A stretch of DNA of 64,000 nucleotides from Capnocytophaga leadbetteri. GTDB lineage: Bacteria; Bacteroidota; Bacteroidia; Flavobacteriales; Flavobacteriaceae. The stretch is from NCBI RefSeq assembly GCF_003054025.1, contig NZ_QBKG01000006.1, forward strand, positions 1 to 64,000. The letters run 5' to 3'. A program made the position numbers and the translations under genes. Below, one piece after another: positions 14,601-28,345 of this stretch. Numbering within the stretch: position 1 is the first letter of the stretch; each line of letters opens with the position of its first letter. Below the pieces are notes generated by a model. It was not told the DNA's origin, did no database searches, and saw only the letters and a program-made list of their open reading frames with translations.

Positions 14601-14951
14601 AGTCTGTACACTATAACCAGTCACTACCACCTCATCAAGCGTATTAGTCTCTTCTTTTAGCTTGATATTAAGGGTTAGATTTTTACCTCCTCCAGTGACT
14701 TTTTTCTCCTGAGTGGTATAGCCTACAAAGCTAAACACAAGAATATCACCCTCTTTTACAGTTAGGGTATAATTCCCATCAAAGTCGGTCTGAGTACCGT
14801 GAGTGGTACCCTTCACAACCACAGCAGCGCCTGGCAACGGCAACTCGTCTGACGATACCGTCCCTTTCACTATTTTTTCTTGTGCCCAACCTATAGCGGT
14901 AAAGAGCATCAAGAAGAACGAACAAAATAAAATCTTTTGTTTCATAATCAA
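11679..14951 (-). CDS. SusC/RagA-family TonB-linked outer-membrane transporter (nan locus; NanO-like by position)
   Basis: A 1090-residue TonB-dependent channel with a signal peptide ending near AIGWAQ and a carboxypeptidase-regulatory-like domain (GTVSSDELPLPGAAVVVKGT). The TonB-box region carries LDEVVVTGYSVQ, the plug has LRGGTGFDGSGSPLVLIDG and AIYGARAANGVILVTTKKGK, and a 22-strand-type barrel ends in aromatic phenylalanine (FGINATF). The start may be Met1 or Met3 (14945). With the downstream SusD it should import sialic acid or sialo-oligosaccharides into the periplasm. The gap to nanA (109 bp) holds a palindromic repeat but no clear promoter, so it is probably read from the nan promoter at 19853. 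Confidence 0.9.
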   Translation of the reverse strand: MIMKQKILFCSFFLMLFTAIGWAQEKIVKGTVSSDELPLPGAAVVVKGTTHGTQTDFDGNYTLTVKEGDILVFSFVGYTTQEKKVTGGGKNLTLNIKLKEETNTLDEVVVTGYSVQTRKTLATSVSKLDTKVLESAPRSNAATALQGSIAGLRVTQVTGKPGTTPEIQLRGGTGFDGSGSPLVLIDGVPGSFYALNSDDIESMEVLKDAASTAIYGARAANGVILVTTKKGKTGRSNITLRTKYTMNQKRSLPDYLNARDFIYWNRRAIKNVQDYGVHNFDQFLTGTHAMATGNNTTDSPYTTMELTNANRYLLNNPEWQTMTDPLDPNKTLIFQNNNVGELIYQYSDAKDYSVSFEGGNDKGSYYLGLGYLDDTGLVLGSNFKRYSGTFNGSYKITDDFKVSSNILYAQSNRVGSFRDALSGYANEDDYFIFQRFAGQAPTSRIYNTNPDGSSSKNYNPGSNSGFGNPAYYKDKFLMDNIEHRITASIQFDWKLLKNLSLMARASHFAIHDTSEKFYKSYLNSGALVSSRYASTAYGRTMNNQGTLTLNYKNTFAEKHNLSALLGGEYFKQQQFSSSAATEGSPTDLIRTLNAGSKASGIPSSYKRDYSIVSTFGQLNYDYDDRYLLGLTFRYDGTSKLRDNKFGFFPGASIGWNAHNEEFFKEGKVSQVVTRLKPRVSYGVNGNIDALTIDNDYYWLLGKYSVQSPYNGKKGYVNTSVPLYYLKWEKATTLNFGLDLGLLNNRVNFLVDYFIRDIYDKLADQRIPISTGFSSVKINNGTLQNRGIEIEANFKVINTDNIKWNIGANFTRIRSFVKKLPNNGNDKNRIGGQEIWDPSNPTQTMYVGGRQEGERVGDDLVVGYQDEGVYHNQAELEADKDRKIQFYAGTIPAANRKPIVGDTRWKDVNGDGIIDSRDRVVLGRTTPDFIGGFTTDFTYKNINLFVKTDYAVGHLINNAVRTRGISQVQGNMNWTSEIRDTWTPENPNANIPRYDFTDPRGNHKAGGEGQYSASSRYWEKGDYLALREITLSYNLPGAAVNNAFKDIRLFVSGTNLAYFTKYTGYSPEKGGWDNGRFPLPRSFTFGINATF

Positions 14952-14980: not shown

Positions 14981-15063
14981 TAGTTGTTAGTTTTTAGTCG
15001 TTAGTCTTTAGTAGTTAGAATGTTGTCGCTTGCTAACGACTAATCGCTAACGACTAACAACTA
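14981..15063. repeat. Palindromic GTTAGTCGTTAG-type repeat between nanA and susC
   Basis: Nested inverted repeats: TAGTTGTTAG (14981-14990) with CTAACAACTA (15054-15063), and TTAGTCGTTAG (14994-15004) with CTAACGACTAA (15033-15043 and 15047-15057). The outer arm contains the nanA stop codon (TAG, 15061-15063). As RNA it would fold into a long hairpin between the nanA and susC coding regions. Same family as the repeats at 17288, 20121 and 21911. Confidence 0.8.
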
Positions 15064-15981
15064 TTTATTGCATTTATTAAAAAAGTCTATGCTTTCTAAC
15101 TCTTTCTTTATCACAGCTTCCTCTTCATCGGTGATGTTTTGGAAAGGTGTGCGGTTGATACCCAAGTCTAAGCCAAGCAGCTTCATTATGCGTTTGCCAC
15201 ATACTATATTACCACGGTATTTAGCAATTACATTTATCACATCTTGGGCGTAGTTTTGCAGTTCGGCAGCTTTAGCTATATTGCCTTTGTGATATTCGTC
15301 TATAATACCCACTAACACCTTGCCTATATAACTACCTGTACCACTGATACCTCCGCGAGCTCCTCCCATCACTAAGGCGTTAAGGATAGTCTCATCTAAG
15401 CCATAGAGCATATCGTATTTACCATTGTTATAGAGCATACATTGGTTGTACTCATATAGCGGCTCATAGGTGTATTTGATACCCGCTAAGTTAGGAATAC
15501 GACCGTCAGCAGCTTTTAAGAAAGGCAACATTGGCAAATACACTCCGTTAAGCACCGGTATATGGTAGAAGTAGAAAGGCAAATTAGGTGCCCCACAAGC
15601 TATTTCTTCGCAGTATTTCACTAACTCCTCTACCCTACCCGCTTTAGGGAAAGGCGATGCCATAGCTCCGATACCAAAAGCCCCTATTTGTTGGGCGTGT
15701 TGTGCCATTTTATAGCTATCTTTTATACAGGTAGCCCCGCAGTGTACTATCACTTTGAAGCCTTTAGGGGCTACTGACACCCATTTCTCTGCTATCTTCA
15801 TACGTTCTTCAACCGTCATCATATAGCCTTCGCCTGATGAACCGTTGATAAACACTCCTATTAGTCCATTTCTTTGCAAAAGTTTTGCATACTCATCTAT
15901 AGGGTCTAAATTTACCTCACCTTTCTTATCGAAAGGGGTAAAGGGCGCTACTATCAGCCCATTAATTTTTTCAAATGTCAT
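15061..15981 (-). CDS. nanA: N-acetylneuraminate lyase
   Basis: A 306-residue class I aldolase of the DHDPS/NAL family that splits Neu5Ac into N-acetylmannosamine and pyruvate in the cytoplasm. Seen are the carboxylate-binding loop GSSGEGYMM (about 47-55; GS(S/T)GE is the family form), the catalytic tyrosine in FYHIPVLNG (Tyr139) and the Schiff-base lysine in LAGIKYTYE (Lys169). Length is normal (E. coli NanA is 297). Neighbours are the MFS permease upstream (58-bp gap) and the susCD pair downstream. A dihydrodipicolinate synthase is less likely given the YHIP motif and this context. Confidence 0.92.
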   Translation of the reverse strand: MTFEKINGLIVAPFTPFDKKGEVNLDPIDEYAKLLQRNGLIGVFINGSSGEGYMMTVEERMKIAEKWVSVAPKGFKVIVHCGATCIKDSYKMAQHAQQIGAFGIGAMASPFPKAGRVEELVKYCEEIACGAPNLPFYFYHIPVLNGVYLPMLPFLKAADGRIPNLAGIKYTYEPLYEYNQCMLYNNGKYDMLYGLDETILNALVMGGARGGISGTGSYIGKVLVGIIDEYHKGNIAKAAELQNYAQDVINVIAKYRGNIVCGKRIMKLLGLDLGINRTPFQNITDEEEAVIKKELESIDFFNKCNK

Positions 15982-16039: not shown

Positions 16040-17275
16040 TTAATTGCCACATATTTCTCTTTTAGGTTTTAAGAATACCAGCATCAGCACGATAGCTATC
16101 AAGATGATTACCGATAATTTGCTAAAATCAGCACCTAAGTTGCCCGCATCGGTAGAGCTACCGAGCATTCGGGTAACGGCATAACCTGCAAATACACCAC
16201 CCATATTCATAATGCCATACGCAGTAGCGCGCTGTTGTTGCGGTATGATTTGGCATAAGATAGGCATATTGTTGGTGTCGAACATCCCATAGCCGATACC
16301 AAAGAGCAAAGTTGCTCCTATCATTGCTATGTACGAGTGCCCAAAGCCTATCAATATTAGGGCAGGTATGGTGAGCCCTAACCCTATGGTACTGGTATAA
16401 ATACGCGCTTTGATATTGGTCTGTACCCAGCGGTCGGACAAGGTACCTCCTATAAGCACTCCTAAGAATGAAGATATAGCGATAGAAATAGTAGCCATAG
16501 GTCCTGCGGTAGCCATATCTACCCCCAAATTGGTAGCAAAAAGGGTAGGCAACCAGTTCTTAGTACCCCAACCTGGGAAACTCGATGCCATAAAGTAGAA
16601 GAGCAATATCCAGAAAGAGAAAGTGCCAAATACCAGCGTAAGCGACTGCCATAGTCCGCTCTTTTCTGTCGGAACAGCTGTTTTTACTACTACGCGTGGT
16701 TTGCGCTCTATATCGAAAAGGGTAAAGACTAAGAACACAGCATACACTATACCTGCTATACCAAACCAATGAAACACCGTGTGCCAAGTGTAGTTTGAGG
16801 CTATGGTAGCCCCAAAACCGCCTAAAGCCTGCCCCGCATAGAGCCCCGACATATGGATACCTACTGCCAACGAACGCGATTTAGAGGTGTGATAGTCAGC
16901 TATCATCGAAAGGGCTGTAGCTAAGTAAAGCGCTTCACTCACTCCCATTAAGGCGCGTAGCCAATACACTTGGTCAAAGGTAGTAGCATAACCCATTCCG
17001 TAGGTTACGGCTGACCATACAAAGAGGCTGCCTACTATCATCCACTTGCGGTTAAGACGGTCTGCCAAAATACCCGCTACCGGACTCATCAATCCGTAAA
17101 TAAGGAGGAAGATGCCCATTAGGCGACCAAAATTCTCGCCTACTGCAAGCTCTGTAATGTCCATTTTCATCGACTCTTGCATCGTAGAGAGCATTTGTCG
17201 GTCTAAATAGTTCAGTAGTGCCACCACCCATAGCAGGGCAACTACTATCCAAGGGTATATTTTACTGTTTTTCAT
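16040..17275 (-). CDS. nanT: MFS transporter, probable sialic acid permease (NanT-like)
   Basis: About 411 residues with twelve hydrophobic segments and major facilitator signatures: LNYLDRQML in helix 1, LADRLNRKWMIVGSL after helix 2 (the D-R-x-[RK] loop) and its weaker counterpart LSDRWVQTNIKAR in the second half. The helix-1 motif is typical of the hexuronate/sialate (ACS) branch. It is placed between nanM and nanA, so import of Neu5Ac across the inner membrane is the natural inference, as in the nanLET cluster of Bacteroides fragilis. The start at 17275 (MKNSKIY) is preferred; an ATG three codons earlier at 17284 is possible. Confidence 0.82.
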   Translation of the reverse strand: MKNSKIYPWIVVALLWVVALLNYLDRQMLSTMQESMKMDITELAVGENFGRLMGIFLLIYGLMSPVAGILADRLNRKWMIVGSLFVWSAVTYGMGYATTFDQVYWLRALMGVSEALYLATALSMIADYHTSKSRSLAVGIHMSGLYAGQALGGFGATIASNYTWHTVFHWFGIAGIVYAVFLVFTLFDIERKPRVVVKTAVPTEKSGLWQSLTLVFGTFSFWILLFYFMASSFPGWGTKNWLPTLFATNLGVDMATAGPMATISIAISSFLGVLIGGTLSDRWVQTNIKARIYTSTIGLGLTIPALILIGFGHSYIAMIGATLLFGIGYGMFDTNNMPILCQIIPQQQRATAYGIMNMGGVFAGYAVTRMLGSSTDAGNLGADFSKLSVIILIAIVLMLVFLKPKREICGN

Positions 17276-17287
17276 ATGAATCATTAG

Positions 17288-17317
17288 TTTTTAGTCGTTA
17301 GTGGTTCGCGGTTAGTT
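17288..17317. repeat. TTAGTCGTTAG repeat between nanM and nanT
   Basis: TTAGTCGTTAG at 17291-17301, followed by GTGGTTCGCGGTTAGTTAA. This is a shorter, decayed member of the family whose full copies are at 14981, 20121 and 21911. It overlaps the end of nanM: the stop codon lies at 17312-17314. Confidence 0.6.
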
Positions 17318-18610
17318 AATTTTCAATCGATAGGTTTTAGGGCTGCGAACACCGGGTTTGAGTTCCCCTTGCACAAGGTAAAACTCAGCTGGGGTGCCTA
17401 CTAAAGTAGCGCCTGCCCGTGCAAAGTCAGCTTGCGTATCGAGTACTGACCACTGCTGCGAGTGCGTGTCAAACAGATAGCATTCCTTATTGAATTGGTA
17501 ATATTCAATAGGTTGTGTCATATAATGCGACATATAGTCGTAATTCTTCTGCTTGCGTTGCTCATCAGTAAGGGTTGTATCTTTACCCAAGTGATAAAGG
17601 TCTGTAATAGTATTGATAAACAGACGGTGGTTCACCCCTCCAAAACAAGCTATATAACGATTGTCAATAGCCAAAGCGGTAGCCCCTGTAAGCGAAAAGA
17701 TTTCTTTATTAGGGCTTTCTTGTACCCCTACTTCCTGCCACTGCTGTTGCTTCAAACTAAAAGCCAATACCTTTTCGCCCATAGTAGGTGCTTTAGTGGC
17801 ATCACCTCCAAAAAAGCCTCCTAACACATACAAAAGGGTATCGTTTTCTTTTTCGATAGCAGCCAATACAGGCTGTACTCTCGCCTCACCAGGGAAATCA
17901 GCTAACAGCTTCCACTGTTTATCTGTAGCCGTATCTATATAAAATACTTTGTTAGAGGCTTTGCCCGAAGCATTGCCGCCTGCTACAAACACCTTGCTGC
18001 CTACGCTTGCCCCTGCAAAGTTGTCAAGAGGTTCGGGTAAGGTAGGAAAGTCAGTAAGGGTAAAGCCTTTTTCTTTTGAATATTGCACTTTATGGCAGGT
18101 AGCTAACGAATTAGTAGCTGTTTGTCCGCCTATCCACAGATAGCCATCAGGAATAGCTACCGATACGCCATAAGCAGCGGCTTCAGGTAGTTTGCCTATC
18201 GCCTGCCATTGATTTTGATTTTTATCAAAGTGAAGTATTGCCTCGTAAAACACTTTTTTGCCCCCTTCAAAACCGAGTTTATCAGGGAAATTGCAACCGC
18301 CTGCCACCAATAGGTCTTCGCCTATAAGTGCGGCATAGGCAGCCGAAACGCCTTTCTGAAGGTCGCCCTCTAAGCCTTGGGTTGCAAGTGTTGTAATATT
18401 AATCTTCATAGTTCGTTCTTTTTGGGTTTCTGTACAAGATATTAAGGCAAGGAGGAAAATTAATGATAACCTCCCCCTTACCCCCCCCAAGGGGGGAATG
18501 CAGTGATGCAAAAGCGACTGAGTAGACTTTGTCGTGAAAGACCGTAGCACGGCAGGCATTAAAAACCTTGACAAAGTTTTGTATATTATATGTTCTTTAT
18601 CATTATTCAT
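17312..18610 (-). CDS. nanM: N-acetylneuraminate epimerase (mutarotase), kelch-type, NanM-like
   Basis: Kelch beta-propeller of the cyclically permuted mutarotase family, which speeds alpha-to-beta conversion of Neu5Ac in the periplasm. Kelch blades are visible (DLLVAGGCNFPD, GYLWIGGQ, KVFVAGGNASGK, LLYVLGGFFGGD, RYIACFGGVNHR). The ATG overlaps the AGE stop as TAATG, implying coupled translation. The N-terminus is odd: about 47 residues precede the hydrophobic LSLIFLLALISC lipoprotein signal (Cys59). Part of them (MPAVLRS ... IPPLGGVRGR) is encoded by a dispersed C6-TT-G8 hairpin repeat. An in-frame ATG at 18409 (MKINITT) would give a signal-less 365-residue protein. Function is well supported; the true start is not. 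Confidence 0.85.
   Translation of the reverse strand: MNNDKEHIIYKTLSRFLMPAVLRSFTTKSTQSLLHHCIPPLGGVRGRLSLIFLLALISCTETQKERTMKINITTLATQGLEGDLQKGVSAAYAALIGEDLLVAGGCNFPDKLGFEGGKKVFYEAILHFDKNQNQWQAIGKLPEAAAYGVSVAIPDGYLWIGGQTATNSLATCHKVQYSKEKGFTLTDFPTLPEPLDNFAGASVGSKVFVAGGNASGKASNKVFYIDTATDKQWKLLADFPGEARVQPVLAAIEKENDTLLYVLGGFFGGDATKAPTMGEKVLAFSLKQQQWQEVGVQESPNKEIFSLTGATALAIDNRYIACFGGVNHRLFINTITDLYHLGKDTTLTDEQRKQKNYDYMSHYMTQPIEYYQFNKECYLFDTHSQQWSVLDTQADFARAGATLVGTPAEFYLVQGELKPGVRSPKTYRLKIN
18472..18557. repeat. C/G-tract hairpin repeat inside the 5' end of nanM
   Basis: On the plus strand: CTCCCCCTTA, C8 (18481-18488), AA, G6 (18491-18496), then about 60 bp to the GCATTAAAAA motif. The C and G tracts form a perfect hairpin. 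In the coding direction the G8 tract is read as LGGV. The element looks like a dispersed flavobacterial intergenic repeat that became part of the reading frame. The G8 run is long enough to slip in replication. Confidence 0.6.
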
Positions 18611-19779
18611 TAACCATTGATCATTTCAATTGTTTTCCAAACTTGGTACAAGCCCCTTGGCACGTGGAAACAGCCTTTCCACTTACCGCCTTTCAGGTCG
18701 AGAAGTACCTCTCCTTGGCGGTTGAGATACCCCCACCATTCAGCATATTCAGGGTCTCTAAAGTGTTGCCAAGTATAGTTATGCACTTTTTCAAACCACT
18801 GTAGGCAGTCTTTATTGCCCGTTAGTTGGTAACCTTTTATCAGCGAAATAAGCGTTTCGATATGTACCCACCACAGTTTCTGATCCCATTCTAATTGCTG
18901 AGGCGGACAGCCTTTTCTGTCCATAAAGTAGTAGATACCTCCGTACTGTTTATCCCAACCATACTCAAGCATTGTTAGGGTAGTTTGCACCGCTTTTTCT
19001 ATCAGAGCAGGGCGGTTGAGGCGCTTGCCTAAATCCATTATAAACCACATTGCCTCTATAGCGTGCCCTGGGTTGAGGTGTCTACCTTCAAAAGTATCGG
19101 ACAAGCTACCGTCAGTATTCACATTTTCTACTACTATGCCCCCCAACTCCGGACGCAAAAATACTTCCATCACCTCATGAATGCAGGCTTCCATAGCCTC
19201 TTCTATAAATGAAGGCTCTAAAAGCGGCTCTATTTCAAGGGCTAAGTTGCACAATATCATCGGTAGGGCAAAGTTTTTGAGCGAGCGGGTACCAGGGTGG
19301 GCTTTGCTCCATTTGCCTTTAGGATTGTCTTGTTTAGAGAGGATTATATCGAAAGTTTTTTTAGCGATATCAGCGTATTCTTTATTGCCTGTAGCGATGC
19401 TTAGCTGACCGAAAGCCATAGTGGCAAAGGTATAAGAGAAGATGTTATAAGGTTCTACTAAAGGGTTACCTTGTTGGTCTAACGAAAAGTACCAGTTTAG
19501 CTGCCCATCGTGTCCGTATTTTTTGAGGAACTCAGCCCCTTGTATAGCGCAGTCTAACCATTCTTGGCGTTTTTCTACGCGGTTGTATAGCATACTAAAG
19601 AGCCATACCTCACGGGCTTGTAGCCATATAAACTTATCAGTATCAAATACGTTACCTTTTCGGTCGAGGCAAGTAAAATAGCCTCCATACTGTTTGTCTT
19701 GCGATTTTTCTAACCAAAAAGGAACCACCTTTTGTAGAAGCTCATCGCGATATTGTTTTTCTAATTGTTTAAAATCCAT
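18610..19779 (-). CDS. N-acylglucosamine 2-epimerase (AGE / renin-binding-protein family)
   Basis: A 389-residue (alpha/alpha)6-barrel epimerase, the usual length for the AGE family. Characteristic stretches are WLQAREVWLFSMLYN (near 55), GHAIEAMWFIMDLG (the family NPGHxxE site, histidine near 237) and WWVHIETLISL (near 305). In this setting it should interconvert ManNAc, released by NanA, with GlcNAc, replacing the kinase / ManNAc-6-P epimerase route of enterobacteria, as shown for the nan cluster of Bacteroides fragilis. It is the first gene of the nan operon: a consensus promoter lies 74 bp upstream, and its stop overlaps the nanM start. Confidence 0.9.
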   Translation of the reverse strand: MDFKQLEKQYRDELLQKVVPFWLEKSQDKQYGGYFTCLDRKGNVFDTDKFIWLQAREVWLFSMLYNRVEKRQEWLDCAIQGAEFLKKYGHDGQLNWYFSLDQQGNPLVEPYNIFSYTFATMAFGQLSIATGNKEYADIAKKTFDIILSKQDNPKGKWSKAHPGTRSLKNFALPMILCNLALEIEPLLEPSFIEEAMEACIHEVMEVFLRPELGGIVVENVNTDGSLSDTFEGRHLNPGHAIEAMWFIMDLGKRLNRPALIEKAVQTTLTMLEYGWDKQYGGIYYFMDRKGCPPQQLEWDQKLWWVHIETLISLIKGYQLTGNKDCLQWFEKVHNYTWQHFRDPEYAEWWGYLNRQGEVLLDLKGGKWKGCFHVPRGLYQVWKTIEMING

Positions 19780-19852
19780 TGTTTTATTTATTTTTTTACC
19801 TCGAAGCTAAGAGCTACCTCATTAACCTCATTATATTTTTAAAATAGCACGG

Positions 19853-19884
19853 CAAATGTACGTCAATAATTTAAAACTGACAAA
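19853..19884 (-). promoter_or_regulatory. Promoter of the nan operon
   Basis: On the minus strand, TTTG (19881-19884), a 20-nt spacer and TACATTTG (19853-19860) match TTTG-N19-21-TAnnTTTG. It lies 74 bp before the AGE epimerase ATG and gives the six-gene nan/susCD operon its own start, separate from the upstream susCD unit. Confidence 0.7.
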
Positions 19885-19937
19885 TATTTTTTAAAGTTTT
19901 TTAATTACAAACGAACTAACACCTTACTTTAACAATC

Positions 19938-19969
19938 AAAAAACACTCACTATCAGTAGTTTAGATAGT
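19938..19969 (-). terminator. Weak terminator-like hairpin after the tandem paralogues
   Basis: ACTATC (minus strand, from 19969) pairs with GATAGT (to 19949) around a 9-nt loop. Five bases later comes TTTTTT (19938-19943). It could partly separate the upstream unit from the nan operon. Confidence 0.35.
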
Positions 19970-20120
19970 AAAATTTTCTTTTATTTTTTCTTATTCTTTC
20001 TATTAGCTCTCACTTTCCGTACAAAACCTATCTTTACTCCATTATAAAAAGTAAAAAACGAAAGTTTTAAAAAGACAAAACACTAAAATAAAGAAAATTA
20101 GTATTTTAAAATATTTTAGT

Positions 20121-20201
20121 TTAGTCGTTAGAAAGCGACACTATGCTAACGACTAGCGACTAGCGACTAGCGACTAGCGACTAACGACTAACGACTAACG
20201 A
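20121..20201. repeat. 7-bp tandem array (CTARCGA)8 with inverted partner
   Basis: Eight contiguous 7-bp units at 20146-20201: CTAACGA, four CTAGCGA-type and further CTAACGA units. TTAGTCGTTAG at 20121-20131 is their inverted complement, with the spacer GAAAGCGACACTATG between. The array runs directly into the stop codon of the gene at 20202. This is the expanded member of the palindromic repeat family at 14981, 17288 and 21911. Confidence 0.85.
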
Positions 20202-21893
20202 CTAATTAGGTAAATCAATCCCCGAAGGGTTCAGCCCTTTACCACCGCCTGCAGTATAGCCTCTACTTTCTCCTGTTTCCCAAGGCGATACCCAGAAAGC
20301 GTATAAATCGCCATTAGTAAGGTAGAACCTAAAACGCAAAGGTTTATCTCTGAGTGCCGCAAGGGTAGCATTGCCTTTCCACTGTACGCGAGCTTTGGTG
20401 CTGTCAGTTTTCTGTAGCCCTATACAGTCTTTTTTAGTAAAACCACTGATAGGAGTACCGTTTTCGTCTAATACTTCTACTAATAACTTACCTTTGGCTA
20501 CAGCGGCATTTACAAACAGATATTCACCGTCAAAGCTCACTTTCTCGGTAGTGGCAAACGCTTCTTTCTTGTCAGCTTTTAGCGATACAAACCCATCACG
20601 GCGCAAGGTAGCTAAGCCGGTGCTCATACCAGCATCCCACCAAATACCATTTTTAGAGCGACCGCTGCTGTAAAAATAAAGCGAATCGCCTACTATAATA
20701 GGCACCCCATTTACTGACTGCATATTGCCGTAATTCCACGCCCCTTCAGTAGGATTTACTCCCATAAACGACTGGTGTGTAGGGCGCGCAAAGTGAAACC
20801 CATCACGGCTGTAGCCTAACTGCACCTCATTGCGCTTGGGCATCATCGCTTTTTTAGCAATACCATTTTCAGGGCCTTGCCACTGACTGTAAAAACCTAA
20901 AATAATACTCTCGTAGGCAATAGCATCAAAATTGTAAATACCAGGGGCTACTTCAGGATAATCAGGGTGGTGTTTCTCTTTGTCGTCAGGCGTAAACCAA
21001 AAAACATTATACTTATCGTTAATTTGTCGGCTCTTCATATGGGCAAGGCTTACGGCATCTTCAGCGTTAGGGTGCTCTAAATAAGCCCGCGAACGGTTAG
21101 AGACCGCTGGCACTGAATAGCGCATACTAATAACCCAGCGATGCGTAAAAGGATTGTAAAACACTGAAGCTCTATCGGTTATACTACCTGAGTGCGCTAC
21201 GCCTTTATCCGTCCAATGAATACCATCAGATGAATATTTTAGCACAAACTGATATTGCGCTTTATCGCTTTTATGCTCATTATTATTCATCACTTTATAC
21301 TCTACATTGAAGAATTTCCAGCGCTTAGCAGGGTCTTTTTCATTGCGGTCAAGCCATACCGTAGCGGCATCGCGGTTGTTTATATCTACGTAGTTAGTAC
21401 CGGGCACTATATCTAACGAGGGTTTCGTCCAATGTTTACCGTCTACCGATTCGGCATAGCAGGTAGCCAAACCGTGTTTAGCTTCATTTGCCTGCGAAGC
21501 TCCTGCCAAATACCACATCTTAAATTTCTGATCAGCTTCGTCATACCACACCCCATCGCTAAACGGAGCTGCATACGGATAGCCCTCTTTAGTGTTTTCC
21601 CAAGGCTTATCAGCTTTTAGCACAGGATTTTGCGCATAGAAATTGGGGGTATGATAAACTTTCTGCAAATGATTCTCGCTGAGCAAAAAGTCATCTACAA
21701 ATAGCTGCCTGCCAGTATTGATAGGTATCACTGCTGGCTTGTGTTGTAGGTAGGGCACTGGCATTTCTTTTCTCTCAGTAGGCTCTTCATAACGGGGTGG
21801 CCACTGTGCGGGTAGCGTTATACCGTTATGAAGTACCTGACCGAAAGCGGTATTTGCCAATACCATATTGAAAATTAAATATACTTTCTTCAT
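20202..21893 (-). CDS. Secreted beta-propeller glycoside-hydrolase-like protein (tandem paralogue B)
   Basis: A 563-residue exported protein (signal peptide to about AFGQ, residue 19). The N-terminal two thirds look like a five-bladed propeller of the GH32/GH43/GH68 kind. INTGRQLFVDDFLL comes early, then three SxDGxHW/F turns (SVDGKHW near 149, SSDGIHW at 221, SRDGFHF at 362) and NRDAATVWLDRNEKDPAKRW. The last 130 residues form a beta-sandwich-like domain (GEYLFVNAAVAKGKLLVEVL). No classical GH33 Asp-box or FRIP motif was found. It is closely similar along its whole length to the next gene upstream. Its substrate is unknown; the context suggests a glycan that yields sialic acid or a co-occurring sugar. 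Confidence 0.7.
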   Translation of the reverse strand: MKKVYLIFNMVLANTAFGQVLHNGITLPAQWPPRYEEPTERKEMPVPYLQHKPAVIPINTGRQLFVDDFLLSENHLQKVYHTPNFYAQNPVLKADKPWENTKEGYPYAAPFSDGVWYDEADQKFKMWYLAGASQANEAKHGLATCYAESVDGKHWTKPSLDIVPGTNYVDINNRDAATVWLDRNEKDPAKRWKFFNVEYKVMNNNEHKSDKAQYQFVLKYSSDGIHWTDKGVAHSGSITDRASVFYNPFTHRWVISMRYSVPAVSNRSRAYLEHPNAEDAVSLAHMKSRQINDKYNVFWFTPDDKEKHHPDYPEVAPGIYNFDAIAYESIILGFYSQWQGPENGIAKKAMMPKRNEVQLGYSRDGFHFARPTHQSFMGVNPTEGAWNYGNMQSVNGVPIIVGDSLYFYSSGRSKNGIWWDAGMSTGLATLRRDGFVSLKADKKEAFATTEKVSFDGEYLFVNAAVAKGKLLVEVLDENGTPISGFTKKDCIGLQKTDSTKARVQWKGNATLAALRDKPLRFRFYLTNGDLYAFWVSPWETGESRGYTAGGGKGLNPSGIDLPN

Positions 21894-21910
21894 TTGATTT
21901 GGTTTTAGGT

Positions 21911-21967
21911 GTTAGTCGTTAAAAAGCGACACTGTGCTAACGACTAAAGTCTAAAGACTAACGACTA
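21911..21967. repeat. Palindromic GTTAGTCGTTA repeat between the tandem paralogues
   Basis: GTTAGTCGTTA (21911-21921) is the inverted partner of CTAACGACTA (21937-21946) and of the later ACTAACGACTA. The spacer AAAAGCGACACTGTG nearly matches that of the copy at 20121. The repeat encodes the last residues and stop of the upstream paralogue: SR-stop is read from AGT CGT TAG. Confidence 0.8.
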
Positions 21968-23631
21968 TTATTGGGTAAGTCAATCCCCGAAGGGTTCAGT
22001 CCTTTACCACCGCCAGCGGTATAGCCTCGGCTTTCGCCTGTTTCCCAAGGCGATACCCAGAAAGCGTATAAGTCGCCATTAGTAAGGTAGAACCTAAAGC
22101 GCACCGGTTTGCCTTTAAGGATGGCAAGGGTAGCGTTGCCTTTCCATTGTACGCGTGCTTTAGTACTATCAGTTTTTTGTAGCCCTATACAGTCTTTTTT
22201 GCTAAAACCACTAATAGGGGTACCGCTTTCATCTAATACTTCCACTAACAATTTTCCTTTAGGAAGAGCCGCATTTACAAATAAATAGTCGCCGTCAAAA
22301 CTTACTTTTTCAGTAGTGGCAAAAGCCTCTTTTTTGTCTGCTTTCAGCGATACAAACCCATCGCGGCGCAAGGTAGCCAAGCCTGTTGAAGTATGACTAT
22401 CCCAAAACACATCGCTAAGCCTACGCCCGCTGGCATAGAAGTAAAGCGAATCGCCTACGATGATAGGCACTCCATTCACTGACTGCATATTTCCCCAGTT
22501 CCACGCGCCTTTGGTCTCATTTACATTCATAAAAGGTTGGTGGGTAGGGCGTGCAAAGTGAAAACCATCGCGACTATAGCCGAGCGAAATCACATTGCGC
22601 TTCTGTATCTTATCTTGCTCACACACCTTGTTTTCAGGCCCTGCCCACGCACTGTAGAAACCGAGTATGATACTCTCGTACGCAATAGCATCAAAGTTAT
22701 AGATACCGGGTTCTACTTCAGGGTATTTTTCGTGGCGTAGCTCTTTGTCATCAGGAGCAAACCAGTAGTGCACGTGCTTATCGCGGTCGTCTTTGCGTAT
22801 GCGGTGGGTTACCGATACCAGCTCCTCAGGGTCAGAGTGCTCTACATAAGCACGCGAGCGGCTAGATACAGGGGTACCATAACGCATACTAATCACCCAT
22901 TTTTTAGTAAATGGATTGTAGAAAGCTGATGAACGGTCGTATATATCACCCGATTGTGCTACCCCTTTGCTCCAATGAATACCATCAGCAGAGTATTTAA
23001 GCACTATCTGCCAACGGCGGTCTGAAGGACGGCGTTCTACATTAAAAAGTTTCCAACGCTTAGCAGGGTCTTTCTCATTGCGGTCGAGCCATACAGTAGC
23101 AGCATCGCGGTTAGAGGTTTCTACTATGTTTGTATTGCTATACACGCCTGCGGCAGGTTTCACCCAATGCTTACCGTCAGCCGATTCGGCATAACCGGTG
23201 TAGAAAGTTTGGGGGTCTCCTTTGTGTAGGGTACCTGCCCCTGTTAGGTACCACATTTTGTACTTGCCATCGCGCTCGTCATACCATATACCATCGCTAA
23301 AAGGAGAAGCGTAAACGGCACCTTGGGTAGTTTTCTCCCATTCTTTATCAGGCTCTAACACAGGGTTGCCTGCATAATAAGTAGGGGTGTGATATACCTT
23401 CTGTAGCTTATTTTCGCTAAGCAAAAAGTCATCTACGAATAGCTGTCTACCGGTGTTGATAGGTATTACGGCTGGTTTTTGCTGCAAGTACGGTACCGGC
23501 ATTTCTTTCCTCTCGGTAGGCTCTTCATAACGTGGTGGCCATTCTGCTGGCAACACTATACCGTTATGAAGTTCCTGACCAAAAGACTTTATACATAAAG
23601 TAATTGAAAGTAAAATGATTATTCTTTTCAT
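21958..23631 (-). CDS. Secreted beta-propeller glycoside-hydrolase-like protein (tandem paralogue A)
   Basis: A 557-residue paralogue of the adjacent downstream gene. It has the same signal peptide layout, the same ITGRQLFVDDFLL-type start (INTGRQLFVDDFLL here), SADGKHW, SADGIHW and SRDGFHF turns, NRDAATVWLDRNEKDPAKRW, and a nearly identical C-terminal domain. Divergence is concentrated in the middle (about 130-310), as expected if the two copies keep a common scaffold but differ in substrate loops. It lies 16 bp after susD and 64 bp before its paralogue, so susC-susD-A-B form one unit. The enzyme class is unproven. Its C-terminus ends in NNSR because a palindromic repeat supplies the final codons. 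Confidence 0.7.
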   Translation of the reverse strand: MKRIIILLSITLCIKSFGQELHNGIVLPAEWPPRYEEPTERKEMPVPYLQQKPAVIPINTGRQLFVDDFLLSENKLQKVYHTPTYYAGNPVLEPDKEWEKTTQGAVYASPFSDGIWYDERDGKYKMWYLTGAGTLHKGDPQTFYTGYAESADGKHWVKPAAGVYSNTNIVETSNRDAATVWLDRNEKDPAKRWKLFNVERRPSDRRWQIVLKYSADGIHWSKGVAQSGDIYDRSSAFYNPFTKKWVISMRYGTPVSSRSRAYVEHSDPEELVSVTHRIRKDDRDKHVHYWFAPDDKELRHEKYPEVEPGIYNFDAIAYESIILGFYSAWAGPENKVCEQDKIQKRNVISLGYSRDGFHFARPTHQPFMNVNETKGAWNWGNMQSVNGVPIIVGDSLYFYASGRRLSDVFWDSHTSTGLATLRRDGFVSLKADKKEAFATTEKVSFDGDYLFVNAALPKGKLLVEVLDESGTPISGFSKKDCIGLQKTDSTKARVQWKGNATLAILKGKPVRFRFYLTNGDLYAFWVSPWETGESRGYTAGGGKGLNPSGIDLPNNSR

Positions 23632-23647
23632 TATATTAATTTAATAA

Positions 23648-25300
23648 TTACCAACCTGGGTTGTTACGAGTGATGTGTGGGTTGCCTTCTACCTCATCTA
23701 CTGGTAGGGGTAGCCACTCATTTTTGTTTTCTTGGAAACCAAGATAAGCAGAGTTGCTATACTTTTTAAAATTAGGGTCTGTGCGCTCTAATTCGTGGAA
23801 ACGTTGTGCTACCTTGCCCCAACGCAATAGGTCGAAAAAGCGATGCCCTTCTTGGGTAAGCTCTAAGATGCGTTCGTGCTCTATCACATCCATATCTACA
23901 GTGCTTACTGCTGGCATACCTACGCGGGCACGCACTTGGTTTACAGCGTCTAACGCCGTTAGTGAGCCTTGTGTACCGCCTTTTACCACAGCTTCGGCAT
24001 ACATTAGCAACACATCAGCATAACGGATTTCTGTTTGGTTAAGACCATTGGCTCTACCATTCCACATATAGAAGTTATCACCAGGGTTGCGAGTAGCAAG
24101 CGTCCAGTCAATACCTTTACGGCAAGCCGCTTTGTACTTCTTTGCTTGTGCTTTAGCTACCCCAAAACCTTTAGCTCCGTAATACTCTCTGAATGTTTTA
24201 TTATCAAAAATACGGACTTCATCACCTGTACGAGCGTTAATTTCTGATTTGGTATCGTCAAAAATCAAAGTGCCGAACATACGTGGGTCGGTGTGCCCCG
24301 AAGCGTCTTTAGAATTTACAAAGGTGTTATACACCCAATCGTGTATCACACTGCTATTCGCATTTTTATTGGTAGGTGGCAAATAACCACGTGGGTCGCG
24401 CCATACCCCACTATTAGATAGCCCTGGGTTAAATCCGGTATTGGTTACATCGCCCAAGAATTGCAACTCAAATATAGACTCATCGTTGTTTTCAGTAGCC
24501 ACCTTAAAGTTGTCGTTATAATCGGCTACTAAGCGATATTTACCACTGAGTATTAGCTCGTTAAACTCGGCTGCGGCTTCGTTATAATAAGTAGTGTTGC
24601 TATGGCCGTAGTAGTGCTCAATGCCTGAGCGGTACAAATAGGCTTTACCAAGCAGGGCAATAGCCGAACCTTTGGTCACACGCCCTACTGATTCGCCTGT
24701 CCAAAAACCTTTTTCTGGCAAGAGTTCTTTAGCGCGTTTAAGGTCTGATATAATAAAGTCCCAAGCCTCTTCAGGGGTAGCCTGTGGTTTGTAGTCTTTG
24801 GCTGACGAAGGTAACTCTTTCATCAGTGGTATATTGCGGAAGTTCAAAAACAAAAACCAATGCGTATAGGCTCTTAAAAAATAAGCCTCGCCCAAATAGG
24901 CATTCTTTAGTTGTTGGTTGCTAAAATTCACTTTAGGTATCTCCTCTATCATTTGGCAGGCTTGCGAAGCTGCTGTATAGAAAAGCGAATAAGGCTGTAC
25001 TATGGTATACCAAGAGCTAGAAAGGTTCGCAGAATACTGTCCTGGCACTCCATAGTCCGAAGCATCGCTACTCTCATCGCCTCGGTTAATTTGCAAGCGT
25101 CCTGCTGTACCCATCGCTCTCGGAGTAGTGATGTAGGCATAAATACCTATCACCCCTTTGTTAATGTTTTGCGGCGTGTTGTAAAACCCATTTACGTCTT
25201 GTTGGTTAGGGTTGCTAGCCAATTCGTCAAAAGTCTTTTCGCAAGCGGTTAGCCCTATAAGTGAGGCTATACATATGGCTTTATATATTATCTTTTTCAT
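23648..25300 (-). CDS. SusD/RagB-family glycan-binding lipoprotein
   Basis: A 550-residue SusD-like lipoprotein with lipobox GLTAC (Cys20) and NPNQQDVNGFYNTPQNINKG after the signal. The family hallmarks are YLGEAYFLRAYTHWFLF, EIRYADVLLMYAEAV, VNQVRARVGMP and ERILELTQEGHRFFDLLRWG. It is an outer-surface partner of the SusC encoded 12 bp upstream. The ligand is unknown and differs from that of the second SusD in this window, to which it is only distantly similar. It is followed directly by the two beta-propeller proteins. Confidence 0.88.
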   Translation of the reverse strand: MKKIIYKAICIASLIGLTACEKTFDELASNPNQQDVNGFYNTPQNINKGVIGIYAYITTPRAMGTAGRLQINRGDESSDASDYGVPGQYSANLSSSWYTIVQPYSLFYTAASQACQMIEEIPKVNFSNQQLKNAYLGEAYFLRAYTHWFLFLNFRNIPLMKELPSSAKDYKPQATPEEAWDFIISDLKRAKELLPEKGFWTGESVGRVTKGSAIALLGKAYLYRSGIEHYYGHSNTTYYNEAAAEFNELILSGKYRLVADYNDNFKVATENNDESIFELQFLGDVTNTGFNPGLSNSGVWRDPRGYLPPTNKNANSSVIHDWVYNTFVNSKDASGHTDPRMFGTLIFDDTKSEINARTGDEVRIFDNKTFREYYGAKGFGVAKAQAKKYKAACRKGIDWTLATRNPGDNFYMWNGRANGLNQTEIRYADVLLMYAEAVVKGGTQGSLTALDAVNQVRARVGMPAVSTVDMDVIEHERILELTQEGHRFFDLLRWGKVAQRFHELERTDPNFKKYSNSAYLGFQENKNEWLPLPVDEVEGNPHITRNNPGW

Positions 25301-25312
25301 TTCGTTTTCAGT

Positions 25313-28300
25313 TTAGAATGTTAATTTCAATCCCATATTATACACGCGGGCGTTGATAGCAGGCGAAGTGCCTAAACCGTCAATCCCCTTGTTGAACAAG
25401 GCATTGCTACCCACTTCAGGGTCGTATAGCGAATACTTAGTAAGCGTAAAGAGGTTTTGAGCGCTACCGTAGATGCGTAGCGAGCGCAAGCCTCCTATCT
25501 TTTTCAGAATAGTTAGCGGGAAGGTATAACCTATTTGTACGTTTTTAAGGCGCAAATAAGAACCGTCTTCTATATAAAAGGTACTTGGCAATGCGTTGCC
25601 GCCGCTGTAGTTGTCAGTCTTAGCGATAGGCAACTTAGTATTCCGATTGGTAGGTGTCCAAGAGTTCAAAGCATCTACAGGAGCGTTAGTGTCGTAATTG
25701 AAGTACAAATCATACTTAGCTGCTGAGAAAATCTCATTGCCTGCTACCCCTTGGAAGAAAGCGGTAAAATCCCAATTGCGGTAGTTTAAGTTAAGGTTAT
25801 AACCAAAAGTAAAGTCTGGGGTAGGATTACCTATTACTTGTTTGTCTTCTTCTTTTAGCTGTTTAGCCACTTTAGCAGTACCGTCTTTGCCTTCAAAAAG
25901 GAAGTCGCCTTGGTCATTAGTGCCTACTACTTTGTAGCCTAAGAAAGAGCCTATTGGCAAACCTTCTTTAGTGATAGTAGGACGGTCGTTAAACTTACCA
26001 CTCATCAGCTCTCCGCGAATAGGTTGTACCCCTTCGCCCAATGACAATACCTTGTTTTGCATATAGGTTAAGTTGGTTTGGAAGTTAAGAGTGAAATCGT
26101 CCCATTTCTTTCTAAATTCTAATGAAAACTCTAACCCTTTGTTTTCTACAGAAGCGGTGTTGTAGTTAGGCACAGCTCCTTTGTTGATAGTGATAGTTTG
26201 TCCTGAAGAAGGAAGTGATTCGAGCGGTGCTAACAGATTGTTATTGCGCTTGATAAAGTATTCAGCAGTAAGGGTAAGCATATTGTTGAGTACTCCTACC
26301 TCAATAGCCGCGTTAGATGAAATGGAAGTTTCCCAAGTAAGGTCTTGTTGCGCAAAACGAGTAACATAACCATATTGGCGCGAGTTGCCAAAAGCAGCAG
26401 GTACAGGGCCATATGCCAAGTTTAAGAACGTATAAGGGTCGATAAAGTTAGCCCCCAACTCGCCATAGCTGGCGCGTAGTTTCAGTTTGCTAAGCAGTTC
26501 AGGGTTAAACCAATGCTCTGAATGCAAATTCCAACCTACTGATACTGAAGGGAAGTAACCCACGCGATGCCCTTTAGCAAATTTAGACGACTCATCACGG
26601 CGCAAACTAAGCGATAGCAAATATTTATTGCTATAATCGTAATTAAGCCTACCAAAGAAAGAAAGCAGTGCAGCATTTTCCTGATTAGACCCCACTACCC
26701 CTTCGCCGTTATACGTTTTTACCGTAGGGGCTCCTAAATCGTGTACGCCTGAGCTAATTGAGTTTTTGCGGTAAAACTCGCGCATCCAGCTCGTACCCAA
26801 TAGGGCATCAATATGGTGTTTCTTTTGGAAAGTACGGTTGAGTGTAAGTAGGTTATCAATAGTATAATTGAAGTTTTCAGCTCTTCCTTCAGATAGCGAA
26901 GTGCGTGCGGTTTGGTTAAGTTTGTTATCAGCAGTACCATCAGCGTTAAAGAAGGTATCATAAGCTGGTACGTGCTTATAGGTATTAGTATTTACATAAG
27001 TTCCTGCTACGTTTAGCTTGTACTGCAAACCTTTCATCAGTTTAAAAGTACCTGCCAAACTACCTGTAGCACTAGTATTGCGAGTAAAAGCGTCTTGCTT
27101 ATAGATAGCTGCCAAAGGGTTAGAAATATTGGTATTAGTGATAGAATAACCTTTTGATGCAGCGGTTGATACATAACGCCCGTGTTCGTCTGTTACCGGT
27201 ATAGTAGGCATCTCAAGAGTGCGACCCCCCGGAGGCGATACTTTTTTAGTATTAGTGATAGACAGCTTTTCACTCAAAGAAAATCTACCTTTTTTAAAAG
27301 TAGCATTAATACGCGCCATATACTTATCGTATTCTGATTTAATGATGATACCCTCTTGTCTTACATAGCCCAAACTGGTATTAAAAGTAGAGTTTTCACT
27401 TCCTCCTGATACGCTGGCGTTAAAGCTACTCATTGGCGCATTGCGGTAGTACAAATCTTGCCAATCAGTACTGCGATTAGGGTCAGTGGGGTTTACGTTC
27501 TGAGGAGCGCGGTCGTAAGCCGGACTGTTGTCTGCCACTTGGTTAGCAAAAGTACGCCATTGCTCTGCGTTCATCATATCGAGCATTTTTGAAGGGGTTT
27601 GGTAAGAGTACGAAGCATCTACTTGCACTATAGTCTTACCGCTCTTACCGTCTTTAGTAGTAACGAGTACTACCCCATTAGCAGCGCGCGAACCGTAGAT
27701 AGCGGCTGCCGAACCGTCTTTAAGTATCTCTATCGACTCAATATCCGAAGGGTTAAGCGCATCAAGCCCATCGGCTATTGCCCCATCGATGATGTATAAC
27801 GGTGCGGTAGCGCCAAACGAACCTGCACCACGTACTACTATATTTACCTCAGCCCCTGCGATACCGCCACGTTGCAAGATTTCTACCCCTGGGGTACGCC
27901 CTTGTAGGGCTGAAGCCACATTGGCAGTAACTTGCTTTTGCACCTCTTTAGCCGATACCGAAGATACTGCTGCCGTCATACTCGACTTTTTCTGAACTCC
28001 GTAGCCTACTACCACTACTTCTTCTAACTGTTGGTTTTCGTCTTTCATTTGCACATTGATAGTGCCACGACCATTTATTGCAATATTTTGCGTTACCATA
28101 CCGATATACGAAAACTCCAAAGTAGCCCCTTTGGCTACATTATCGAGTGCGTAATTACCATTCATATCGGTACTGACTCCTTTAGTAGTGCCTTTTACCA
28201 CTACACTTACCCCCATAAGAGGTTCTTTGTTAGCATCGGTTACCTTTCCTTTTACGTTAAGCGACTGTGCCCACGCCGAAAAAGTACACAGACATAGCAA

Positions 28301-28345
28301 CAGTAATGCTGCCCAATGTCTTTTCATCATTGCTTTGTCTCGCAT
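25313..28345 (-). CDS. SusC/RagA-family TonB-linked outer-membrane transporter
   Basis: A 1010-residue TonB-dependent channel. The signal peptide ends near TFSAWAQ and a carboxypeptidase-regulatory-like domain follows (VKGKVTDANKEPLMGVSVVV). Next come EEVVVVGYGVQKKSSMT at the TonB box, plug motifs (IVVRGAGSFGATAPLYIIDG and AAIYGSRAANGVVLVTTKDG), and a barrel ending in phenylalanine (MGLKLTF). A start at Met7 (28327, MKRHWAALLL) gives the better signal peptide. It opens a unit of susC-susD and two propeller proteins. No sensor gene (hybrid two-component, SusR or ECF sigma/anti-sigma) sits next to it. Confidence 0.9.
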   Translation of the reverse strand: MRDKAMMKRHWAALLLLCLCTFSAWAQSLNVKGKVTDANKEPLMGVSVVVKGTTKGVSTDMNGNYALDNVAKGATLEFSYIGMVTQNIAINGRGTINVQMKDENQQLEEVVVVGYGVQKKSSMTAAVSSVSAKEVQKQVTANVASALQGRTPGVEILQRGGIAGAEVNIVVRGAGSFGATAPLYIIDGAIADGLDALNPSDIESIEILKDGSAAAIYGSRAANGVVLVTTKDGKSGKTIVQVDASYSYQTPSKMLDMMNAEQWRTFANQVADNSPAYDRAPQNVNPTDPNRSTDWQDLYYRNAPMSSFNASVSGGSENSTFNTSLGYVRQEGIIIKSEYDKYMARINATFKKGRFSLSEKLSITNTKKVSPPGGRTLEMPTIPVTDEHGRYVSTAASKGYSITNTNISNPLAAIYKQDAFTRNTSATGSLAGTFKLMKGLQYKLNVAGTYVNTNTYKHVPAYDTFFNADGTADNKLNQTARTSLSEGRAENFNYTIDNLLTLNRTFQKKHHIDALLGTSWMREFYRKNSISSGVHDLGAPTVKTYNGEGVVGSNQENAALLSFFGRLNYDYSNKYLLSLSLRRDESSKFAKGHRVGYFPSVSVGWNLHSEHWFNPELLSKLKLRASYGELGANFIDPYTFLNLAYGPVPAAFGNSRQYGYVTRFAQQDLTWETSISSNAAIEVGVLNNMLTLTAEYFIKRNNNLLAPLESLPSSGQTITINKGAVPNYNTASVENKGLEFSLEFRKKWDDFTLNFQTNLTYMQNKVLSLGEGVQPIRGELMSGKFNDRPTITKEGLPIGSFLGYKVVGTNDQGDFLFEGKDGTAKVAKQLKEEDKQVIGNPTPDFTFGYNLNLNYRNWDFTAFFQGVAGNEIFSAAKYDLYFNYDTNAPVDALNSWTPTNRNTKLPIAKTDNYSGGNALPSTFYIEDGSYLRLKNVQIGYTFPLTILKKIGGLRSLRIYGSAQNLFTLTKYSLYDPEVGSNALFNKGIDGLGTSPAINARVYNMGLKLTF

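Follow-up and report, generated by a model that had tools for sequence, protein, structure and literature searches.

A tandem pair of five-bladed propeller proteins linked to sialic-acid catabolism in Capnocytophaga leadbetteri: possible glycosidases of an undescribed family

What do two exported proteins without a recognised family do beside the genes for sialic-acid breakdown? The window considered here, a stretch of 64,000 nucleotides from Capnocytophaga leadbetteri (contig NZ_QBKG01000006.1, positions 1 to 64,000), contains two such genes in tandem, which we call PROP1 and PROP2. A first-pass annotation of this DNA had placed them between a SusC/SusD pair and the nan operon, likened them to five-bladed propellers of the GH32/43 type, and suggested that they may free the transported sugar or act on another glycan. 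Both open reading frames are where it had put them, and the gene order agrees. We think that PROP1 and PROP2 may be periplasmic glycosidases that trim sialylated oligosaccharides and release sialic acid, forming a family not described so far, and we give this reading a probability of about 0.42. In the open literature, judged by titles and the starts of abstracts, we found no description of the family.

20202..21893, minus strand: PROP2 (P0001), open reading frame of 563 residues, paralog of PROP1
21958..23631, minus strand: PROP1 (P0002), open reading frame of 557 residues, with a predicted five-bladed propeller (about residues 63-429) and a C-terminal beta-sandwich (about 436-527)
21687..21704, minus strand: LFVDDF motif of PROP2, residues 64-69
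23425..23442, minus strand: LFVDDF motif of PROP1, residues 64-69

The two proteins are 73% identical (410/564), and this identity is unevenly spread: 57/62 over residues 19-80 and 127/136 from residue 419 to the end (about 92-93% at both ends), against 221/337, or about 66%, in the propeller (residues 81-418) and 5/18 in the signal peptide (residues 1-18). The near-identical ends and divergent middle reported earlier are thus real, with the signal peptide as an exception. Export was judged by eye from this peptide, which ends in ...FGQ. The two motifs that had been pointed out are also present, LFVDDF beginning at residue 64 in both proteins and an S-x-D-G-x-H-W/F turn occurring three times in each. 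Neither protein matches any Pfam family at E ≤ 0.1, the models for GH32, GH43 and GH130 included, or any NCBIfam model, and a single-sequence search of the PDB gave a chance-level match only.

The link to sialic acid comes from the relatives of these proteins (loci and contigs are labelled L below, and genomes G). A scan of the contigs of genomes gave 209 confirmed relatives, the best 80 of which were taken for analysis: one from the same genus (L025), 13 records from Bacteroidota (56-73% identity), 36 near relatives mostly from Planctomycetota, Verrucomicrobiota and Armatimonadota (36-48% identity, with L037 at 62%), and 30 far relatives (25-30%). L037, a 3.3-kb record titled Bacillota, was counted with the outside group though it falls within the Bacteroidota clade of the tree. 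Neighbours were counted by tblastn; the p values of this comparison pool related loci and set different phyla against each other, SusC and SusD being unexpected outside Bacteroidota, and serve as a guide only.

Among the 13 Bacteroidota loci, 12 have matches to both SusC1 and SusD1, the pair next to PROP1. Orthologs of SusC1 (46-64%) and of SusD1 (46-72%) are found in 11 loci each, with a 30% and a 27% match, respectively, in one more; the SusC/SusD match of L042 is generic (27-30%). The lyase-like aldolase NanL is encoded in the fetched DNA of eight of the 13, as compared with 0/36 near and 1/30 far loci. In L034 the genes run YhcH-MFS-NanL-AGE-SusC-SusD-PROP, with NanL just beyond what was fetched, which brings NanL beside the propeller to 9/13. 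In L028, NanL is present as a 110-residue piece at a contig end, and in L027 and L036 it is overlapped by longer antisense open reading frames. The epimerase AGE and the major facilitator superfamily (MFS) transporter are matched in seven loci each and YhcH in four, and in L031 no gap between successive genes from SusC to the MFS gene exceeds 35 bp. At the level of whole genomes, NanL is 66-70% identical in 10/13, 52% in G463 and 43% in G462, with a fragment only in G453. In Bacteroidota, the propeller family is linked to sialic-acid catabolism, and the idea that these proteins free the transported sugar gains support from this repeated nan context.

What kind of protein could this be? The AlphaFold2 model of PROP1 was built on an alignment of 73 rows, comprising PROP1, PROP2 and 71 of 120 PROP open reading frames chosen by length and completeness. 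It reaches a predicted local distance difference test (pLDDT) of 94.8 and a predicted template modelling score (pTM) of 0.94; when folded by itself, the C-terminal domain was modelled poorly (pLDDT 58.6). The top VIA-align match is 6n1a, the N-acetylgalactosamine (GalNAc) deacetylase of F. plautii (Z 24.5, root-mean-square deviation (rmsd) 3.4, 304 aligned residues, 13% identity). It is followed by GH130-type structures at Z 22-24 (22.4-24.3 for the listed phosphorylases and chains with GH130 in the title, aligned over about 275-286 residues) and by GH43/GH62 at Z 20-22, and in Foldseek the first ranks are taken by GH32 enzymes, aligned over both domains at an rmsd of about 17-21. A profile search with 12 rows matched 6n1a at 2.2e-7; with 73 rows, 6n1a was matched at 1.2e-4 and a GH130 chain at 5.5e-12. 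The predicted fold is of the carbohydrate-active, five-bladed propeller type, as had been proposed, the count of blades resting on the best structural matches being five-bladed enzymes; no clear match to a characterised family of unrelated substrate was found.

The rank of 6n1a raises the idea that the propellers are deacetylases or esterases taking N- or O-acetyl groups off sialylated glycans, as the F. plautii enzyme does with its own substrate. The fold is the same (6n1a/6n1b), presumably with five blades also in 6n1a, its structural score being tied with that of GH130, and there is besides the profile match, weaker in the larger alignment. The identity is 13%, and PROP loci show no GalNAc link in their context. 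The histidine of the PWHQDVQY stretch of 6n1a, which we take to be a metal ligand in a metal-binding active site, is placed by a loose profile alignment opposite the residue that follows Y311, which is N in 44/47 near rows and G or T in 21/26 far rows. Moreover, a separate GDSL/SASA protein, the usual type of esterase, is encoded in L026 and L116. We regard an acetyl-removing function as improbable.

Coming back to the preferred glycosidase reading, GH130 mannoside phosphorylases and hydrolases are five-bladed propellers, and the chains 7fip, 9fj8 and 5a7v, which we take to be GH130, have this fold in common with PROP, together with an N-terminal nPvL...WE stretch in the profile alignment. PROP differs in having no Pfam match, an extra C-terminal beta-sandwich and a sialic-acid context. 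The EDPR stretch of GH130, which holds the catalytic Asp, has no clear counterpart in PROP, the profile alignment leading to about D183 and the order of strands to D176. GH32, GH43 and GH62 share the five-bladed likeness, and GH32 enzymes also carry a C-terminal beta-sandwich, but PROP is set apart from GH32 by the high rmsd over both domains and by a GH32 Pfam model that only 2/12 relatives match at E ≤ 1. When these 12 family members were scanned singly against Pfam, two matched GH32N (best 1.5e-5) and three matched BNR_2 weakly (best E 0.0013).

GH33 sialidases are six-bladed and are defined by Asp boxes and a FRIP motif. A GH33-type sialidase was considered for PROP1 and PROP2 and rejected by sequence: there is no Pfam/BNR match at E ≤ 0.1 (for PROP1, none at E ≤ 1), and a motif search found neither FRIP nor an Asp box of the form S/T-x-D-x-G-x-x-W/F in either protein, as the first-pass annotation had said. 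Some likeness to GH33 and to Akkermansia Amuc_1547, presumably a GH181 enzyme, is nevertheless seen in the propeller fold, in the short S-x-D repeats and in the proposed release of sialic acid. The PROP turn reads S-x-D-G-x-x-W/F, versus S-x-D-x-G-x-x-W in the Asp box, a form given, like the six blades of Amuc_1547, in PMC12018670.

In the 47 rows nearest to the window proteins, S112, G114, R233, E319 and Q383 are kept in all 47, D176, D232, R260 and N381 in 46, and N312 and R403 in 44, while D67 of the LFVDDF motif is present in 73/73. By the order of strands, many of the conserved residues would lie at the starts of inner strands, where propeller pockets are found. The earlier idea had been made to depend on conserved acidic residues in the propeller centre, and D176 (46/47), D232 (46/47) and E319 (47/47) answer to this, with their placement in a pocket being predicted. 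GH32 and GH43 enzymes use an Asp/Asp/Glu catalytic triad at inner-strand starts; of the residues compared with it in PROP, D176 and D232 are conserved, and D113 is G in 9/47 rows. In these nine, residue 175 is H (eight) or P (one) instead of R, and since the two positions change together in at least two separate branches, residues 113 and 175 probably touch. Among the 26 far rows, other residues stand at most of the conserved positions, with D232 (24/26) as an exception, so that near and far relatives probably differ in what they act on. The 24 signature positions we chose are identical in PROP1 and PROP2, although 116 of the 337 propeller residues differ; as the positions were chosen for conservation, this is no independent test.

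Where would the proteins work? We think that PROP1 and PROP2 are probably periplasmic, because the signal peptide looks plain; the Cys at residue 13 of PROP1 has, by eye, no proper lipobox. In the tree, the Bacteroidota clade of 28 rows falls into three sets, one of 18 rows, to which PROP1 and PROP2 belong, and two of five rows each. One of the sets of five (L027, L028, L030, L031, L035) shows, again by eye, an N-terminal Cys followed by acidic residues, as in surface lipoproteins, and within the set of 18 a lipobox-like Cys is seen in L034:4653 and L037. Propeller folds bind ligands, and these lipoprotein-like rows of one paralog clade would suit non-catalytic glycan binders that hold sialylated oligosaccharides for the transporter. 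The plain signal peptides of the window copies speak against this, as do the invariant acidic residues, which are typical of enzymes, and the presence in 6/13 loci of a PKD-PQQ propeller protein that is a better candidate for binding. We thus have little faith in a purely binding role.

If the propellers are glycosidases, which bond do they cut? The first-pass annotation had argued from the absence of an ordinary sialidase in the window. There is indeed none in the window, but as an argument this fails, because the window genome carries one BNR_2 (GH33-type) protein on another contig (E ≤ 0.001), because an ordinary GH33 scores over the family cut-off in 16/19 congeners, and because GH33 is found in 3/13 of the related Bacteroidota loci (directly after PROP in L033 and L036, about 3.3 kb beyond in L042). 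These observations weigh against a release of sialic acid by PROP1 and PROP2, and so do several others. NanL is not beside PROP in four of the 13 loci (L029, L030, L038 and L042, of which L030 ends at a contig end), and the matches to AGE in the related loci do not exceed 32-36% identity. For relatives outside Bacteroidota, the counts given above show no tendency of NanL to lie near the propeller gene, and a genome-wide search at E ≤ 1e-30 found NanL with no difference between near (14/31) and far (11/27) relatives. This search covered 31/36 near and 27/30 far loci, those left aside (L037, L052, L053, L056, L070; L082, L098, L100) coming mostly from bins already represented. Five congeners besides G013, a genome of the same genus that has the propellers, carry a NanL ortholog (73-98% identity) without them. 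Finally, a fold alone proves no catalysis, and the catalytic residues are guessed from conservation and blade topology.

The same GH33 genes, in the window genome and beside PROP in L033, L036 and L042, fit another possibility, namely that the propellers act on the same sialylated oligosaccharides and cut a different sugar (for instance a galactose, GalNAc, fucose or mannose link) before or after GH33 has acted. That the closest folds belong to glycosidases and phosphorylases of other sugars agrees with this. However, the recognised catabolic neighbours in L031, L032, L034/L113 and L035 are sialic-acid genes, no catabolic gene for another sugar turned up among the genes matched or scanned (which were not all the genes), and three genomes without detectable GH33 keep the system. 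We see this possibility as somewhat unlikely, well ahead of deacetylation or mere binding.

The three genomes deserve to be described. BNR_2 is matched in 10/13 of the Bacteroidota genomes; it finds nothing in G459, which is the isolate Bacteroides propionicigenes NSJ-90, or in the metagenome bins G451 and G455, where gaps are possible. A GH33 protein query at E ≤ 0.1 likewise gave nothing in G459 and G451, and in G455 only a chance-level frame of 83 residues (E 0.2). With no detectable GH33, the propellers are obvious candidates for the release of the sugar in these genomes, GH156, GH177 and GH181 not having been searched there. In G455, to which L030 belongs, NanL-AGE-SusC1 stand on a separate 3.2-kb contig that may be the missing neighbour of this locus. 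The earlier proposal that the propellers free the transported sugar is therefore favoured by the nan link and by these genomes, and disfavoured by the GH33 of the window genome itself.

In the scheme we prefer, SusC1/SusD1 would carry sialylated oligosaccharides across the outer membrane, PROP1 and PROP2 would trim these oligosaccharides in the periplasm, sialic acid most likely being freed where its linkage or its variant is handled poorly by the GH33 of the cell, and the NanM-like, NanT-like, NanL and AGE proteins (assigned by their families) would pass the freed sugar into the established catabolic pathway. The pocket-type residues are common to both copies and their surroundings widely different, so that the two may hold one sugar and differ in the leaving group. 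A more specific version, which we offer tentatively and at less than even odds, would make the family new five-bladed exo-sialidases, in contrast to the six-bladed GH33, with D176, D232 and E319 as the acidic residues and R233, R260 and R403 for the carboxylate. Having diverged into forms A (mostly periplasmic), B (lipobox-bearing) and C, they would form with one SusC/SusD pair a self-contained system for feeding on sialoglycans where GH33 is missing.

Many mucin glycans of the host are capped with sialic acid, and the enzymes removing it help to decide which bacteria of gut and mouth can feed. If the propellers act on it, GH33, GH156 and GH181 would be joined by another family of sialidases, and bacteria in which no GH33 is detected, Bacteroides propionicigenes among them, would have a route to this sugar. 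Should the propellers be hydrolases of a different type, a large family that has no name and extends from Bacteroidota to Planctomycetota would still gain its first function. The operons are present in cultured isolates, which makes the question directly testable.

How did two copies arise, and why do they resemble each other mostly at their ends? Propellers are found in 2/20 genomes of the genus, that of the window and G013 (C. periodontitidis p1a2), and L025 has the same gene block as G013. In the tree, the duplication falls within the genus. We compared both copies of the window genome with both copies of G013. Sites at which the copies agree within a genome and differ between genomes number 6 in the N-terminal part, 14 in the middle and 36 in the C-terminal part; sites at which orthologs agree and paralogs differ number 2, 192 and 1, respectively (C-terminal versus middle, Fisher p 2e-30). 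The similar ends have thus been homogenised by gene conversion within each genome, and the propellers have remained distinct, which suggests two functions kept apart by selection.

The block SusC1-SusD1-PROP1-PROP2 is a cassette that adjoins the nan genes in some genomes and is absent from others, since congeners carry NanL without propellers and since G014, which has nan genes and no propellers, shows AGE followed by pabC- and pabB-like genes (named by eye), the very flanks of the cassette in the window. Identities are given for NanL in the genus because a search at E ≤ 0.001 is uninformative, 20/20 genomes matching through the wider aldolase family. In G013, NanL adjoins a phosphosugar mutase gene (L111:3951-6662) and SusC2/SusD2 are missing, so that SusC1/SusD1 may be the only pair at its nan locus.

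In the window, the minus strand reads SusC1, SusD1, PROP1, PROP2, a gap of 422 bp, AGE, the NanM-like gene, the MFS gene, NanL and SusC2/SusD2:

25313..28345, minus strand: SusC1, with which the cassette begins, a TonB-dependent transporter of the outer membrane (PF07715, PF13715)
23648..25300, minus strand: SusD1 (PF07980, NCBIfam)
19780..20201, minus strand: gap of 422 bp between PROP2 and AGE, with a promoter-like stretch of Bacteroidota type, by eye
18610..19779, minus strand: AGE, N-acylglucosamine 2-epimerase, N-acetylmannosamine to N-acetylglucosamine (NF052547, 727.5 bits, cut-off 600)
17312..18610, minus strand: NanM-like cyclically permuted mutarotase (TIGR03548, 260.7 bits, cut-off 243.2; PF24996)
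16040..17284, minus strand: MFS transporter, NanT-like by context (PF07690; listed NCBIfam models all below cut-off)
15061..15981, minus strand: NanL, N-acetylneuraminate-lyase-like aldolase (PF00701)
11679..14951, minus strand: SusC2, second TonB-dependent transporter, NanO-like by position (Pfam)
10173..11654, minus strand: SusD2, NanU-like SusD (NF033072 NanU, 291.5 bits, below cut-off 425)

With a SusC/SusD pair adjoining carbohydrate-active genes, this is a polysaccharide utilisation locus. SusD1 is not NanU-like (37 bits against the cut-off of 425), and the best NCBIfam model for NanL is N-acetylneuraminate lyase, below its cut-off (127 versus 281 bits). Transcription of the nan genes probably starts from a separate promoter, given the stretch in the gap, which follows what we take to be the Bacteroidota promoter motif; the regions upstream of AGE and SusC1 have only short AT-rich matches in common. 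The NanM-like frame has about 85 additional N-terminal residues, the mutarotase match starting at residue 87, and its true start probably lies further downstream. Bacteroidota nan loci with NanO/NanU, as described in PMC3969230, have NanL, the epimerase, the MFS transporter, the mutarotase and a NanU-like SusD in common with the window, which differs by a second, non-NanU SusC/SusD pair and the two propellers.

Several minor observations concern the related loci. Proteins of 840-923 residues adjoin PROP in L026:12179-14950, L027:16469-19006 and L034:6488-9010, with no domain match except a secretion-tail domain in L026; those of L027 and L034 show a remote kinship with the propellers (profile E 2e-5 and 3e-4; L026 none at 1e-3), and this remote relative is a further candidate for sugar release in G459 and G451. 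The PKD-PQQ-type propeller protein stands between or after the PROP genes (L028:13379-14938, L031:13399-14961, L032:13830-15401 and three more) and is a candidate surface glycan-binding protein. FecR-type matches occur in five of the 13 loci (domain check on one). The nan locus of L026 contains the two-domain GDSL-SASA (sialate O-acetylesterase) protein (L026:10063-12129), and that of the L029 genome a 52% relative (L116:10372-12459). In L032 (Bacteroides xylanisolvens XB1A), SusC is split over two overlapping frames of 820 and 499 residues (L032:4603-8206), the reading frame being broken either in the genome itself or in its record.

Further away, the closest neighbours of the 36 near loci (60 proteins) show no repeated family that points to a pathway among the families listed (the first 25 of 76), which include three GFO/IDH/MocA proteins, two sulfatases and one BNR_2. 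Viral contigs gave six pattern matches and no PROP relative, and plasmids one weak planctomycete match annotated "hypothetical protein". Among far relatives from other Bacteroidota, we noticed by eye, without this being a general rule, one propeller gene beside a DHDPS/NanL-like aldolase and another beside a BNR sialidase-like gene (L008:2940-3842, L009:304-1488).

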